Of a stretch of DNA of 43,476 nucleotides, positions 23,265 through 28,692 are shown one piece after another. A program made the translations under genes and the position numbers. The first letter of the stretch is position 1. The number at the start of each line of letters is the position of its first letter. The notes under the pieces were generated by a model. It ran no database searches. It saw only the letters and a list, made by a program, of their open reading frames with translations, and was not told the DNA's origin. Source of the DNA: Kutzneria sp. 744 (lineage in GTDB: Bacteria; Actinomycetota; Actinomycetes; Mycobacteriales; Pseudonocardiaceae); assembly GCF_000568255.1 (NCBI RefSeq), contig NZ_KK037166.1, positions 2,580,479 through 2,623,954 on the forward strand. Reading direction: 5' to 3'.

Positions 23265-23459
23265 TTGCAGGCCATGCTCTGCGAGATCTGGCAGGAGGTC
23301 TCCGCCTACGCTTACCGGCGCACGCCCCGTGACCACGGGCAGGCGCAGGAGTTCGTGCAGGAGGCCGCGGTCGACCTCATGCGCCGGTGGCGTGAGCGCG
23401 GCGAGGTCCCGCGGGCGATCGACACGATCGTCCGCGCCACCAGGTACCCTAGGGGGTAA
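23265..23459 (+). CDS. Small hypothetical protein (64 residues) upstream of cstR-like gene
   Basis: The frame starts at TTG 23265 or the ATG three codons on and encodes a charged helical protein: [20 protein letters not shown], then [20 protein letters not shown] and [16 protein letters not shown]. It resembles an isolated sigma-factor-like helical segment, but I make no functional claim. Its stop TAA (23457-23459) is part of the CstR-type operator at 23445-23458. The repressor gene's operator therefore overlaps the end of this gene. Confidence 0.5.
23445..23458. promoter_or_regulatory. CstR/CsoR-type operator TACCCTAGGGGGTA (site 1)
   Basis: A 14-bp dyad, TACCC-TAGG-GGGTA, centred 21 bp before the GTG start of the CsoR/CstR-family gene. 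This matches the G-tract dyads bound by tetrameric CsoR-family repressors and recurs three more times in the next 5 kb. It is the expected autoregulatory site. Confidence 0.82.
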
Positions 23460-23472
23460 GCAAGGAGGCAGC

Positions 23473-23736
23473 GTGGAACTGAACGAGGACGTCCTGTCGG
23501 ACGTGGTCAAGCGGCTGCGACGGGCCCAGGGACAGGTCGGCGGGCTGGTCCAGATGATCGAGGACGGCCGAGACTGCAAGGACGTCATCATCCAACTGGC
23601 GGCAGTGTCTCGGGCCCTGGACCGGGCCGGCTTCAAGCTGATCGCGAGTGGACTGGAGCAGTGCGTGTCCGACGACTCCGAGCAGGCCAAGGCCGACATG
23701 GCGCAGTTGGAGAAGCTGTTCCTGACCCTGGCCTAG
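23473..23736 (+). CDS. cstR: CstR-type persulfide-sensing repressor (CsoR/FrmR family)
   Basis: An 87-residue all-helical repressor that starts at GTG 23473 with AAGGAGG upstream. The family core [20 protein letters not shown] is followed by Cys35 (GRDCKDVI) and Cys64 (SGLEQCV). In copper-sensing CsoR a His lies four residues before the second Cys; here that position is Gly60. A two-Cys, no-His arrangement is the mark of CstR, which forms di- or trisulfide bridges with persulfides and then leaves its operator. The neighbouring persulfide dioxygenase-rhodanese and sulfite-exporter stub support this reading. Its stop overlaps that of the convergent PLP-enzyme gene by 4 bp. Confidence 0.85.
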
Positions 23737-25427
23737 CCGGCCAGGCAGGTCGGCGGCAGCGGAAACCAGCGCAGGGCTTCGAAGTCCTCGGGCAGTCCGG
23801 TCGGACCGTCGTCGACGGTGTCGGCACGGGCGGCCAGCAGGGCACGCGCGTCGCACAGATGCTCGCCGAGTGCCGATTCACCCAATGGCGGTGAGGTCTG
23901 CCCGTTGTGCGTGTCCGAGGCCACGCTACGCAGATCCGGCAGGCGTAGCGGCAACTGGGCCGCCGCACGGTGCCGCCACAGGCCGGTATGCGGATCGAAC
24001 AGATAGTCCGTGAGCAGCCGATACCCGTACTCAGCAACGAGTTCGACCGCGTCGACCAGATAGTCCCGAACGGCGTCGGTGATGAAGTAGTTGAAGTTCA
24101 ACCGAACCCAGCCCGGCTTGACGCCGTCGCAGCCGCGTTCGATCTCGCGCTCGAAGGCGTGTGAGTGCTGCCGGTCGATGCCCAGCAGCCGGTGCCCGTA
24201 GGGGCCGGCACAGGAGCAGCCGCCGCGGGCCTGGATGCCGAACAGGTCGTTGAGCAGGGCCACGACGAAGTTGTGGTGCAGGAACCGGGGGCCGAACCTG
24301 ATTCGGAAGGACACGATCGACAACCGGTCCGCGCGGCTGCTACCCAGGATCTGGACGGCCGGATGGGCGTTCCACCGGTCCAGCGCGTACCGCCACAGCC
24401 GGTCCTCCCGCGCCCGGATCACGTCGGTGCCCACTGCGTCCTTCACTGCGAACACCAGTCCGGCCCGGATGGATTCGACGATCGCCGGCGTGCCGCCTTC
24501 CTCGCGGGCCACCGGATCGTCCAGGTAGCGGTGGCCGACCGGGTCGACGAAGGCGACCGTGCCGCCGCCCGGCGCGGTCGGCACCGCGTTGGTGACCAGG
24601 TTCCGGTGGACCACCAGCACGCCGGGTGTCTGCGGTCCGCCGACGAACTTGTGCGGTGACAGGAAGATCGCGTCCTTGTGGTCGGCGCGGCCGGGGGCGC
24701 TCTCCCGCATCCGGATCGGCACGTACGGCCCGGCGGCCGCGTAGTCCCAGAAGGACAGCGCGCCGTGCTCGTGGAGCAGGGCGGCGATCCGGTCGGTATC
24801 GGTCAGCACCCCAGTCACGTTGGACGCGGCGGAGAAGCTGCCGATGCGCAGTGGCCGGTCGTCGTAGCGGTCCAGTTCGCGGCGCAGTTGGTCGATGTCG
24901 ATGTGGCTGTCGGCGTCCTCGTCGATGACGACCACGTCGGCGATCGACTCACGCCAGGGCAGCTCGTTGGAGTGGTGCTCGTACGGGCCGACGAACACGA
25001 CCGGCCTTTCCTGCGGCGGGATGTGCTCGCGCAACCGGTGGCGTGCGTCGAGCCCGGCGGGGATACGGATTTCCAGGATTCCCACCAGTTTGTTCACCGC
25101 GGCCGTGGCCCCCGAGCCGCAGAAGATCACCAGGTGGCCGTCGGCGCCGCCGACACAGTCCCGGACCAGCCGGCGGGCCTGCTCACGCAGCCGCGTGGTC
25201 CACAGCCCGGTGCCAGAGCTCTCGGTGTGCGTGTTGGCATAGCGCGGCAACACCTGCGTCCGGATGAACTCCTCCACGAAGTCCAACGAACGGCCCGAGG
25301 CGGTGTAGTCGGCATAGGTGATGCGCCGCGGACCGTAGGGGCCGTCCAGCACCTCGCCCTCTCCGATCAGACCACGCCGGATGCGGTCCAGCATGTCGAG
25401 TTCGCTGTCCTGCACCAAGGTGGCCAC
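23733..25427 (-). CDS. Class V PLP-dependent aminotransferase/cysteine desulfurase-like enzyme
   Basis: A 564-residue PLP enzyme. GTG 25427 is chosen because a purine-rich AAGGGAG lies upstream and the next codons read [20 protein letters not shown]. Family features are [40 protein letters not shown], the nucleotide-phosphate loop [17 protein letters not shown], the PLP-binding Lys in [17 protein letters not shown] and the loop [17 protein letters not shown] with Cys residues where desulfurases keep the catalytic one. It could mobilise sulfur from cysteine or a related thiol. Divergence from the cstB-like gene across two CstR-type sites puts it in the persulfide regulon. It is longer than SufS by about 150 residues, mostly at the C-terminus. 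Confidence 0.85.
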
Positions 25428-25555
25428 CCTGCTGCTCCCTTCGCCGGGTGCAGTCCAGGATGCACTGGGGCCGACCGTCGGGATGCGGCCGATCGTCCCG
25501 GTGGGCACGGACTTCCGGCACTGGTCGCTGTCGACACTGTCACACATCCTGGATA

Positions 25556-25569
25556 TACCCCCACCGGTA
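25556..25569. promoter_or_regulatory. CstR-type operator TACCCCCACCGGTA (site 2, one mismatch)
   Basis: A dyad with arms TACCC and CGGTA, extended by A/T on both sides. It lies in the divergent promoter region, 129 bp before the PLP-enzyme start, and is the site best placed to control that gene. It is 47 bp from site 3. Confidence 0.68.
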
Positions 25570-25602
25570 TGCGGCGGGCGCGCTACACTGGCCTCATCCA
25601 GG

Positions 25603-27385: not shown

Positions 27386-27386
27386 G

Positions 27387-28467
27387 ATGCGGTTGGGCGT
27401 GACAGGAGCGCTCGTCGACGGGGTGTACCGCGCAGGCGATGTCGAGATCGACCAGGACACCGGTCGGGTGGCCGCCATCGGCGTCGCCGGCAACGGACAC
27501 GGGCTGGCCGTGCCCGGCCTGATCGACTTGCAGGTCAACGGATTCGCCGGCGTGGACTTCCTGACCGCCGACGTCGAGCACTATGCCCGTGCCGGCCTGG
27601 CGTTGGCCCGCACGGGTGTCTTGGCCTACCAGCCCACCCGAGCAGACCATCGCCGCGCTCGCCACCGCCGGCAAGGCACAGGCCGACTCGGCCGGTGCCC
27701 GTATTCTCGGCGTCCACTTGGAGGGGCCGTTCCTGTCCCCCGATCGACCCGGCACCCACCCGACTCACCTGCTGCGTGCGCCCGACATCGCCCTGACCCA
27801 GCGGTTGCTCGACGCCGGACCAGTCACGCAGATCACGCTCGCCCCGGAACTGCCGGGTGCGCTGGACGTGGTGGATTTGTGTGTTCGCAACGGCATTCTC
27901 GTCGCGTGCGGCCATACCAACGCCACGGCCGGCCAAGCGCATGCGGCCTTCGACCGCGGCGCACGGCTGGTCACGCACCTGTTCGACGCGATGCGGCCCT
28001 TCACCCACCGCGACCCCGGCGTCATCGGCGCCGCGTTGACCCGGGGCGAGGTGACGATCGGGCTGATCGCCGACCCCAGCCACCTCGCCCCCGAAACGGT
28101 TCACCTGGCCTTCCAGGCGGCGCCCGAGCGAATCGCCCTGGTCACCGACGCGCTGGCGGCCGCCGGATGCCCGGACGGCCACTACCGTCTGGGCGAGGTT
28201 GAGTTCGACGTCGCGGACGGTGTCGCGCGCCGGGCGGACGGCACTCTTGTCGGCAGCACCGGAACCCTGCTCGACGCCGTGCGTCACGCCTGTGCGGCCG
28301 GGGTCCCGGTCGAAGCGGCGCTCAACGCCGCCACTCGTGTCCCGGCCCGGCTCCACCCGGAGGCGGGTATCGGTCTGCTTCGCCCCGGCGATCCCGCCGA
28401 TGTCGTCGTGCTCGACGACGACCTGGGCCTCCGCGCAGTCCTTCGCCGCGGTGGGCCCGTGCCGTGA
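27387..28467 (+). pseudogene. nagA: N-acetylglucosamine-6-phosphate deacetylase (nagA), frameshifted
   Basis: ATG 27387 opens MRLGVTGALVDGVYRAGDVE and reaches VPGLIDLQVNGFAGVDFLTA, but near 27635 the frame breaks after VLAYQPT. In the next frame the enzyme continues PPEQTIAALATAGKAQADSA, the metal-site blocks GVHLEGPFLSP and ACGHTNATAGQ, THLFDAMRPFTHRDPGVIGA and LVTDALAAAGCPDG, to the stop at 28467. The join lacks a few residues normally present (about LITS), so a short deletion, not just one base, occurred. NagA would deacetylate GlcNAc-6-phosphate in amino-sugar recycling. It has no evident link to the sulfur genes apart from position. Confidence 0.85.
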
Positions 28468-28471
28468 GTGC

Positions 28472-28636
28472 TCAGCCTCGACGGAACAGCCGGCGCAGGC
28501 CTCGTGCCGGCTTGGCCTCCGCGCTGCAACTGCACCGCTGGGCCGCGGGCACGCCCGCGAGCACCTGGTCGACGTGCCTGCCGCACCCGGCGTAAGTGGC
28601 TTTGCCGCAAGTCCGGCAGGCGACGCGCTGACACAT
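28472..28636 (-). CDS. Conserved 54-residue Cys-rich (zinc-ribbon-like) protein
   Basis: From ATG 28636, with GAGAGGACG upstream, the minus strand encodes MCQRVACRTCGKATYAGCGR, then HVDQVLAGVPAAQRCSCSAE and a basic tail. Cys residues at C2, C7, C10, C18, with His21 and the C-S-C pair at about 39-41, suggest one or two zinc sites. Small proteins of exactly this pattern (CxxCGKxTxAGCGxHVxxVL) are widespread in actinobacteria and have no assigned role that I know. It diverges from the cation transporter gene, and a CstR-type site lies 43 bp upstream, so it probably belongs to the persulfide regulon. Confidence 0.85.
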   Translation of the reverse strand: MCQRVACRTCGKATYAGCGRHVDQVLAGVPAAQRCSCSAEAKPARGLRRLFRRG

Positions 28637-28678
28637 GGTGACGTCCTCTCAATAGCTGTTCGTCATGCCAGCCCAATA

Positions 28679-28692
28679 TACCCCCAGGGGTA
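28679..28692. promoter_or_regulatory. CstR-type operator TACCCCCAGGGGTA (site 4)
   Basis: A dyad TACCCC-CA-GGGGTA with longer arms than the other sites (6 bp). It lies in the divergent region between the Cys-rich protein (start 28636) and the cation transporter (start 28739), within reach of both promoters. Confidence 0.8.

Follow-up and report, generated by a model that had tools for sequence, protein, structure and literature searches.

A candidate CstR-type sulfane-sulfur regulon in Kutzneria sp. 744 with an added cysteine-rich mini-protein

In Kutzneria sp. 744, a gene for a small CsoR-family repressor is clustered with genes for a persulfide dioxygenase (PDO)-like protein, a pyridoxal phosphate (PLP) enzyme, a 54-residue cysteine-rich (Cys-rich) protein and a cation diffusion facilitator (CDF)-like membrane protein, and short dyads stand in the promoter regions between them. 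To which signal does this cluster respond, and which of its genes belong to one regulon? We addressed these questions in a stretch of 43,476 nucleotides (hereafter the window; contig NZ_KK037166.1, positions 2,580,479 to 2,623,954, assembly GCF_000568255.1), assigning genes by Pfam, by NCBIfam and by comparison with solved relatives. We propose, with a probability of roughly 0.83, that the cluster is a regulon for sulfane-sulfur (persulfide or polysulfide) stress of the Streptomyces type to which a Cys-rich mini-protein has been added. This tiny, widespread protein is a recurrent partner of CstR.

A sequence-only reading of this DNA had placed dyads of the type TACCC-N4-GGGTA at four positions, and all four are present: 23445..23458 (TACCCTAGGGGGTA), 25556..25569 (TACCCCCACCGGTA), 25603..25616 (TACCCCAGGGGGTA) and 28679..28692 (TACCCCCAGGGGTA), none of them assigned to a strand. 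Three are exact; the one at 25556 deviates from this pattern by a single base but matches ATACC-N6-GGTAT exactly (start 25555). The same reading had proposed a scan of the genome, with sites frequent elsewhere counting against a regulon. Across the whole genome of 11,646,492 bases (11.65 Mb), exact TACCC-N4-GGGTA occurs three times, always in the cluster (23445, 25603 and 28679), which rules out a genome-wide scatter of exact sites, and exact ATACC-N6-GGTAT occurs once, at 25555. A base-composition model gives 0.005 expected exact sites per 5.2 kb and a probability of ~2e-8 for three or more. Degenerate sites are not enriched genome-wide, since allowing up to one mismatch to TACCC-N4-GGGTA yields 82 places versus 184 for a reversed control pattern; in the window alone, up to two mismatches gave 13 matches versus 9.95 expected, which is not above chance.

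The dyad at 23445 lies 14 bases before the GTG start codon of cstR (23473..23736, plus strand) and is its probable autoregulatory site. The 87-residue product belongs to the CsoR/RcnR (DUF156) family (PF02583, 84 bits, cut-off 22.8) and, as had been read from the sequence, carries two cysteines (Cys35 and Cys64) and a glycine (Gly60) at the position of the CsoR histidine. This is the residue pattern of CstR and ScCsoR, two conserved cysteines and no histidine copper ligand, and Gly60 departs from the Cys-His-Cys site with which copper-type CsoR proteins bind Cu(I). In Streptomyces coelicolor, ScCsoR acts as a repressor of its own gene, of a rhodanese gene and of pdo, which is transcribed together with tauE; the protein recognises ATACC-N6-GGTAT, of which two sites precede pdo, and polysulfide releases it from DNA, for which Cys37 and Cys66 are both needed (Lu et al. 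2020, PMC7533328). The Kutzneria cluster resembles that circuit, as described there, in the distance of 29 residues between the two cysteines (Cys37/Cys66 there, Cys35/Cys64 here), in the ATACC-N6-GGTAT operator, in the two sites before the dioxygenase gene and in the site before the repressor gene. Operators like ATACC-N6-GGTAT before sulfur genes characterise CstR/ScCsoR systems, and all four sites in the cluster are of this kind.

The two central dyads lie between the divergent PLP and dioxygenase genes, 78 (upstream member) and 31 bases (proximal member) before the dioxygenase start codon. The dioxygenase gene (25648..26991, plus strand; 447 residues) encodes a metallo-beta-lactamase domain (PF00753) and rhodanese matches (PF00581) in two stretches, with a CRSGYR loop near the C-terminus; solved relatives are 3tp9 and 3r2u. 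This layout, with a C-terminal rhodanese domain and its predicted active cysteine, is that of a type III persulfide dioxygenase or CstB. The pair at 25556 and 25603 resembles the tandem pair before the S. coelicolor dioxygenase gene, which does not support the earlier assignment of one operator to each gene. Of 30 dioxygenase-like genes from non-duplicate relatives, 12 had at least two dyads in the 300 bp before them, 7 had one and 11 had none; a dyad directly before cstR also recurs in many relatives.

The sequence-only reading had also counted tauE in the gene set. A TauE gene is common behind the dioxygenase gene in relatives. A tblastn search with three TauE proteins from relatives found no intact gene in the window (best E 0.36), and TauE was dropped as a cluster member. 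Directly after the dioxygenase stop codon, 17 residues (26995..27045, plus strand) are 47% identical to two TauE N-termini, a non-significant similarity that could at most be what is left of the start of a decayed sulfite exporter gene. A search of a 601-bp stretch without composition correction gave a best E of 0.002, on the other strand and through stop codons, which we regard as noise. A 70-residue TauE N-terminus had no match in the Kutzneria genome, a weak negative drawn from one fragment of one relative.

Could the repressor instead be a copper sensor of the CsoR type, and the dyads copper operators? CsoR and the window repressor share one protein family, NCBIfam returns solely sensors of metals or formaldehyde, among which RicR scores best and none reaches its cut-off, and a metal-related role is conceivable for the CDF-like and Cys-rich genes. 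Against this stand Gly60 in place of the histidine ligand and the PDO, TauE, sulfide:quinone oxidoreductase (SQR) and rhodanese genes that neighbour the system in relatives. Furthermore, the genome holds two CsoR-family genes, and the second has the Cys-His-Cys residues, is followed by CopZ-like and CopA-like frames with heavy-metal-associated domains, and has a dyad one base longer, TACCC-N5-GGGTA, the spacing of the published copper operator of Streptomyces lividans (PMC3902906). Near Cys-rich genes in relatives, CsoR-family matches carry glycine at the histidine position in 62 readings and histidine in 3 (some genes are counted twice); the three histidines belong to copper-type genes of two loci (L044 and L120). 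In the solved repressor 7mq1 this position is an asparagine; that structure was deposited as a copper sensor, and we take it to be a CstR. We rejected a copper CsoR identity because of Gly60, because a separate csoR of the copper type exists and because the spacer there is N5 where that of the cluster is N4, and we consider it very improbable. Because of the dyads, Gly60 and the separate copper-type csoR with its longer dyad, we read the core of the cluster as a CstR/ScCsoR-persulfide dioxygenase circuit. The earlier proposal of a CstR-like repressor with a dioxygenase target and cluster-confined exact operators thus stands.

The fourth dyad, at 28679, lies between the divergent genes for the Cys-rich protein (28472..28636, minus strand) and the CDF-like protein (28739..29338, plus strand), 42 and 46 bases from their respective start codons. 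To examine whether the Cys-rich gene is tied to this operator elsewhere, we scanned a collection of genome contigs with a profile of 14 sequences (that of the window and 13 from genomes of the family), chosen irrespective of the dyad. From the 283 relatives found, the best 80 in the ranking of the search tool were analysed, with flanks of up to 8 kb per side, shorter at contig ends. Nearly all come from actinomycetes or other Actinomycetota, with three Kofleriaceae/Myxococcales records; locus sets overlap (e.g., L150 and L050), so counts are not summed. A dyad of the N6 type was present in the 300 bp before the Cys-rich gene at 44 of 80 loci, mostly beginning 31-89 bp before the start, and at 39 of 67 after removal of near-duplicates. 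Control patterns with spacers N3-N5 and N7-N10, and seven permuted half-site pairs, gave 0 of 80 each. Downstream of the gene, dyads occurred at 3 of 79 loci, where they precede cstR (L116 and L119) or the dioxygenase gene (L120). At a further 12 of the 67 loci, the Cys-rich gene lies in a same-strand chain with CstR, PDO, TauE, rhodanese or SQR genes that is headed by a dyad. The 48 upstream sites from non-duplicate relatives have the consensus ATACCCC-NN-GGGGTAT.

Among the 80 loci, the flanks of the Cys-rich gene contain genes that are CstR-like (41), PDO-like (37) or that encode TauE (31), rhodanese (28), DUF302 (19), MMPL (11), thioredoxin (10), SQR (5), PLP (4) and CDF (1) proteins, and at 39 of 67 non-duplicate loci at least one CstR, PDO, TauE, rhodanese or SQR gene is present. 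Of 100 genomes of the family, 19 encode the Cys-rich protein. Counting that of the window, there are 22 Cys-rich genes in this sample; 10 of them have an N6 dyad at most 300 bp upstream, and 15 have a CstR-like gene no more than 6 kb away. A CstR-like gene (E up to 1e-12) was found in 17 of 19 genomes with the Cys-rich gene versus 18 of 81 without (Fisher P 7e-8, uncorrected for relatedness), and in 12 of 14 versus 23 of 86 (P 4e-5) when five genomes with divergent or doubtful members were left out of the Cys-rich set. Upstream dyads, neighbourhood and co-occurrence with CstR in relatives strongly support the membership of this protein in the regulon, as the sequence-only reading had claimed. 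Five Amycolatopsis/Prauserella records (L141, L142, L148, L150 and L152) share a near-identical block of CstR, Cys-rich and MMPL transporter genes, which suggests recent horizontal transfer; four of these blocks reach further and add TauE, rhodanese and PDO-like genes. The DUF302 proteins (PF03625) of 19 loci, preceded shortly by a dyad in L113 and L179, are another candidate for this network and are uncharacterised.

What might such a protein do? It matched nothing in Pfam or NCBIfam at E 0.01, and a profile search of solved structures gave a best E of 0.28. In 77 aligned sequences, M1, C2, C7, C10, G17, C18, G19, H21, V25 and C35 are invariant, and C37 is present in at least 90%. Three divergent sequences with the motif TTWxGCG (L034, L036 and L038) have lost C37, and their genes start no more than 350 bp from the start of a CstR-like gene (genomes G018, G070 and G040). 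Judged by these residues, C7xxC10 and C18xxH21 resemble one zinc site, with C2 and C35xC37 left over. The protein may thus be a zinc knuckle with spare cysteines that take persulfide sulfur, and it probably handles persulfide sulfur or zinc. We also weighed a purely structural zinc finger, a regulator or nucleic-acid-binding accessory that handles neither sulfur nor zinc. The predicted beta-beta-alpha fold (two models, pLDDT 64 and 68) with CxxC and CxxH, the basic C-terminal tail and several weak fold matches to zinc fingers speak for it; the lack of any significant fold or sequence match and the conserved C2 and C35xC37, which one zinc site would not need, speak against it, and on balance we find it unlikely. 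Equally doubtful to us is a bolder extension, in which the 54-residue protein would be the founder of a so far undescribed family of mini-proteins for persulfide stress. It would be a zinc knuckle that switches with redox state: sulfane sulfur would load onto the spare C2 and C35xC37, zinc would be released or delivered according to the persulfide load, and the sulfur would pass on to the dioxygenase. Many actinomycete CstR regulons would then hold a dedicated sulfur/zinc carrier that the gene sets described for staphylococci and S. coelicolor lack.

Whether the two remaining genes belong to the regulon is less clear-cut. The PLP gene (23733..25427, minus strand; 564 residues, class V, PF00266 128 bits) is convergent with cstR, overlapping it tail to tail by 4 bp, and its start codon is 128 bases from the dyad at 25556. 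Its best solved relatives are cysteine desulfurases. In an alignment with 8d8s, the segment sphkf pairs with sghkm and rggcscagp with raghhcaqp; we take the first to hold the PLP lysine and the second the catalytic cysteine. As its TIGR01979 score is 114.5 bits versus a cut-off of 475.1, it is a distant relative and not a SufS. Our first view of this gene as a bystander, with a dyad at 0 of 3 homologues, was revised after wider neighbourhoods of near relatives were inspected. The closest relative (L099, 78% identity) has SQR-, DsrC- and DsrE-like neighbours but lacks an N6 dyad in a stretch of 19 kb, and a second (L217, 69%) lies in a cluster with PDO, CstR, thioredoxin, rhodanese, SQR, DsrC- and DsrE-like genes and seven N6 dyads; a third (L216, 68%) showed no such cluster or dyads. 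The nine relatives at 55-64% identity that were examined with wide flanks (L218-L224, L100 and L101) all lie outside clear sulfur clusters; in L222, though, a dyad precedes a weak match of the thioredoxin type and a 29% TauE match, and L223 has a 33% SQR match. Among 29 PLP loci of the phylum with flanks of ~1.5 kb, N6 matches occurred in two (L185, which is L217, and L194). Through the Cys-rich search, a biased route, we found PLP genes in L129 and in the pair L153/L156, and a remnant in L125; in the pair, CstR and the Cys-rich gene belong to the same cluster and a dyad stands directly before the PLP gene. Given the sulfur-gene contexts of its closest relatives, we count the PLP gene as a probable member of the sulfur network within its near clade, which supports its description as an added sulfur enzyme; its direct repression here is plausible. 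In L153, the region of the dyad is common to the PLP gene and a PIG-L deacetylase-like gene (4620-5417), and a like frame lies beside the Cys-rich gene in L054.

The CDF-like protein (199 residues) scores exactly at the PF01545 cut-off (26.6 bits) and aligns to FieF with E 0.0036. Zinc transport by this protein is not to be assumed, because the histidine of the FieF HxxxD transport site is a valine. No dyad was found at any of 29 CDF homologue loci with ~1.5 kb flanks or at the two homologues of the phylum scan (L214 and L215), and we dropped the protein as a conserved target. The single positive relative, reached through the Cys-rich search, is Pseudonocardia sp. 73-21 (L105), in which a CDF gene (61%) and a Cys-rich gene diverge around a dyad. 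The earlier proposal that the transporter is a target is thus weakly supported, by this one relative.

These observations bear on a smaller regulon, limited to the cstR, dioxygenase and Cys-rich genes, with the PLP and CDF-like genes as bystanders that share intergenic regions. It would agree with how commonly two or more dyads precede dioxygenase genes, with the dyad-free CDF homologues and closest PLP relative, and with the nine more distant PLP relatives outside sulfur clusters. It would also agree with the second copies in the Kutzneria genome, a PLP gene (L101, C1:163539-165194; 57%) and a CDF-like gene (L102, C1:10842771-10843340; 77%), both with no N6 dyad in 15-17 kb. The sulfur neighbours of near PLP relatives (L099 and L217, with CstR in L217 and L129), the dyad directly before PLP in L153/L156, the L105 arrangement and the 46-bp distance of the dyad at 28679 from the CDF-like start argue the other way. 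We regard this smaller regulon as a serious possibility that falls short of even odds.

For the preferred reading, a sulfane-sulfur regulon, we infer DNA binding, effector and the activities of all proteins as follows. The reduced CstR/ScCsoR-type repressor would sit on dyads like ATACCCC-NN-GGGGTAT and repress its own gene, the dioxygenase gene through the tandem dyads, the Cys-rich gene and probably also the adjacent PLP gene. Sulfane sulfur would modify Cys35 and Cys64, upon which the repressor would leave the DNA. The dioxygenase would oxidise persulfide to sulfite, and the PLP enzyme would probably move sulfur from cysteine into or out of the persulfide pool. The Cys-rich protein, most likely a zinc knuckle (C7, C10, C18 and H21) with spare C2, C35 and C37, would take up persulfide sulfur on these spare cysteines, or they would protect and deliver zinc under stress.

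Several observations weigh against this proposal. At 16 of 67 non-duplicate Cys-rich loci we found no dyad directly upstream and no chain headed by one; these include L117, with a short upstream flank, and L166, L167 and L169, with same-strand sulfur genes upstream that fall outside the chain rule; at 28 of 67, none of the five sulfur genes lies in the fetched flanks. Two family genomes (G066 and G096) have the Cys-rich gene and no CstR-like match, and in two others (G044 and G077) the two genes are 600 kb apart. The better model of the Cys-rich protein is moderately confident (pLDDT 68; predicted template-modelling score 0.38) and had no significant fold match in Foldseek (best E 2.4). Three genomes of the same genus (G019, G057 and G087) have neither a Cys-rich nor a CstR match. 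Truncated genes and transposase-like frames flank the cluster, which may therefore be acquired or partly degenerate.

Among known systems, the closest that we found is the ScCsoR circuit of S. coelicolor. From that circuit, as described in PMC7533328, the cluster differs in that the window yielded no intact tauE and the cluster itself showed no separate rhodanese gene, and in its added Cys-rich mini-protein, SufS-like PLP enzyme and CDF-like membrane protein. The parallel first drawn with the staphylococcal cst operon holds for cstR and the cstB-like gene and fails for tauE. In Staphylococcus aureus, CstR is likewise a persulfide-sensing CsoR-family repressor of a CstB-type dioxygenase; the operon described there comprises tauE, cstA, cstB and sqr (PMC5480029), whereas no cstA, sqr or tauE was seen in this cluster (tauE alone was searched for). 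A CstR-type repressor also controls PDO and sulfur-carrier genes in the Bacillus licheniformis YrkD cluster, which unlike ours has 11 genes, with SQR and a sulfide-sensing two-component system; the main text of that paper makes no mention of a desulfurase (PMC9918477). TTHA1953 of Thermus thermophilus is a two-Cys CsoR-family repressor of sulfur genes too, but its reported operator is TACNNTACNNNNGTANNGTA, its targets are Sox genes, and NaHS caused no loss of DNA binding according to its authors (PMC10318464).

Because the core circuit is already known from Streptomyces, the regulon itself is unsurprising, a variation on a known theme, and the mini-protein is the part worth testing. What is gained is a conserved mini-protein outside Pfam and NCBIfam that is tied to a sulfane-sulfur repressor at the level of the footprint, and a desulfurase-like enzyme placed in the same gene clusters. 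Sulfide stress elicits a zinc-limitation response in S. aureus (PMC5480029), and the Cys-rich protein is a small candidate for a protein that connects persulfide load with zinc, a link suggested in that organism. Our literature search found no work joining persulfide dioxygenase, a cysteine-rich protein and sulfane sulfur, a search that covered few subscription papers and does not establish absence from print.

Between the dioxygenase and Cys-rich genes (26995-28467) lie the possible tauE start, a carboxymuconolactone-decarboxylase-like gene that is truncated and a nagA-like gene that seems to be spread over two frames. The copA-like gene after the copper-type csoR (L001:2061-3243; C1:3231570 onward) breaks frame after ~120 codons; together with the split nagA this may reflect decay or sequence error, and because this gene elsewhere in the genome also breaks frame, some frame breaks in the cluster could be sequence errors. 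Downstream of the cluster, translations point to a transposase-like gene pair (29458-30628) and an integrase-like frame (34575-36215), which are compatible with an acquired island. Two ArsP_1-type permease genes also lie near dyads: one in the Kutzneria genome (PF03773; L103, C1:8903417) has a copper-type N5 dyad just upstream, and one in Pseudonocardia sp. 73-21 (L105:5857) has an N6 dyad ~15 bp before its called start.

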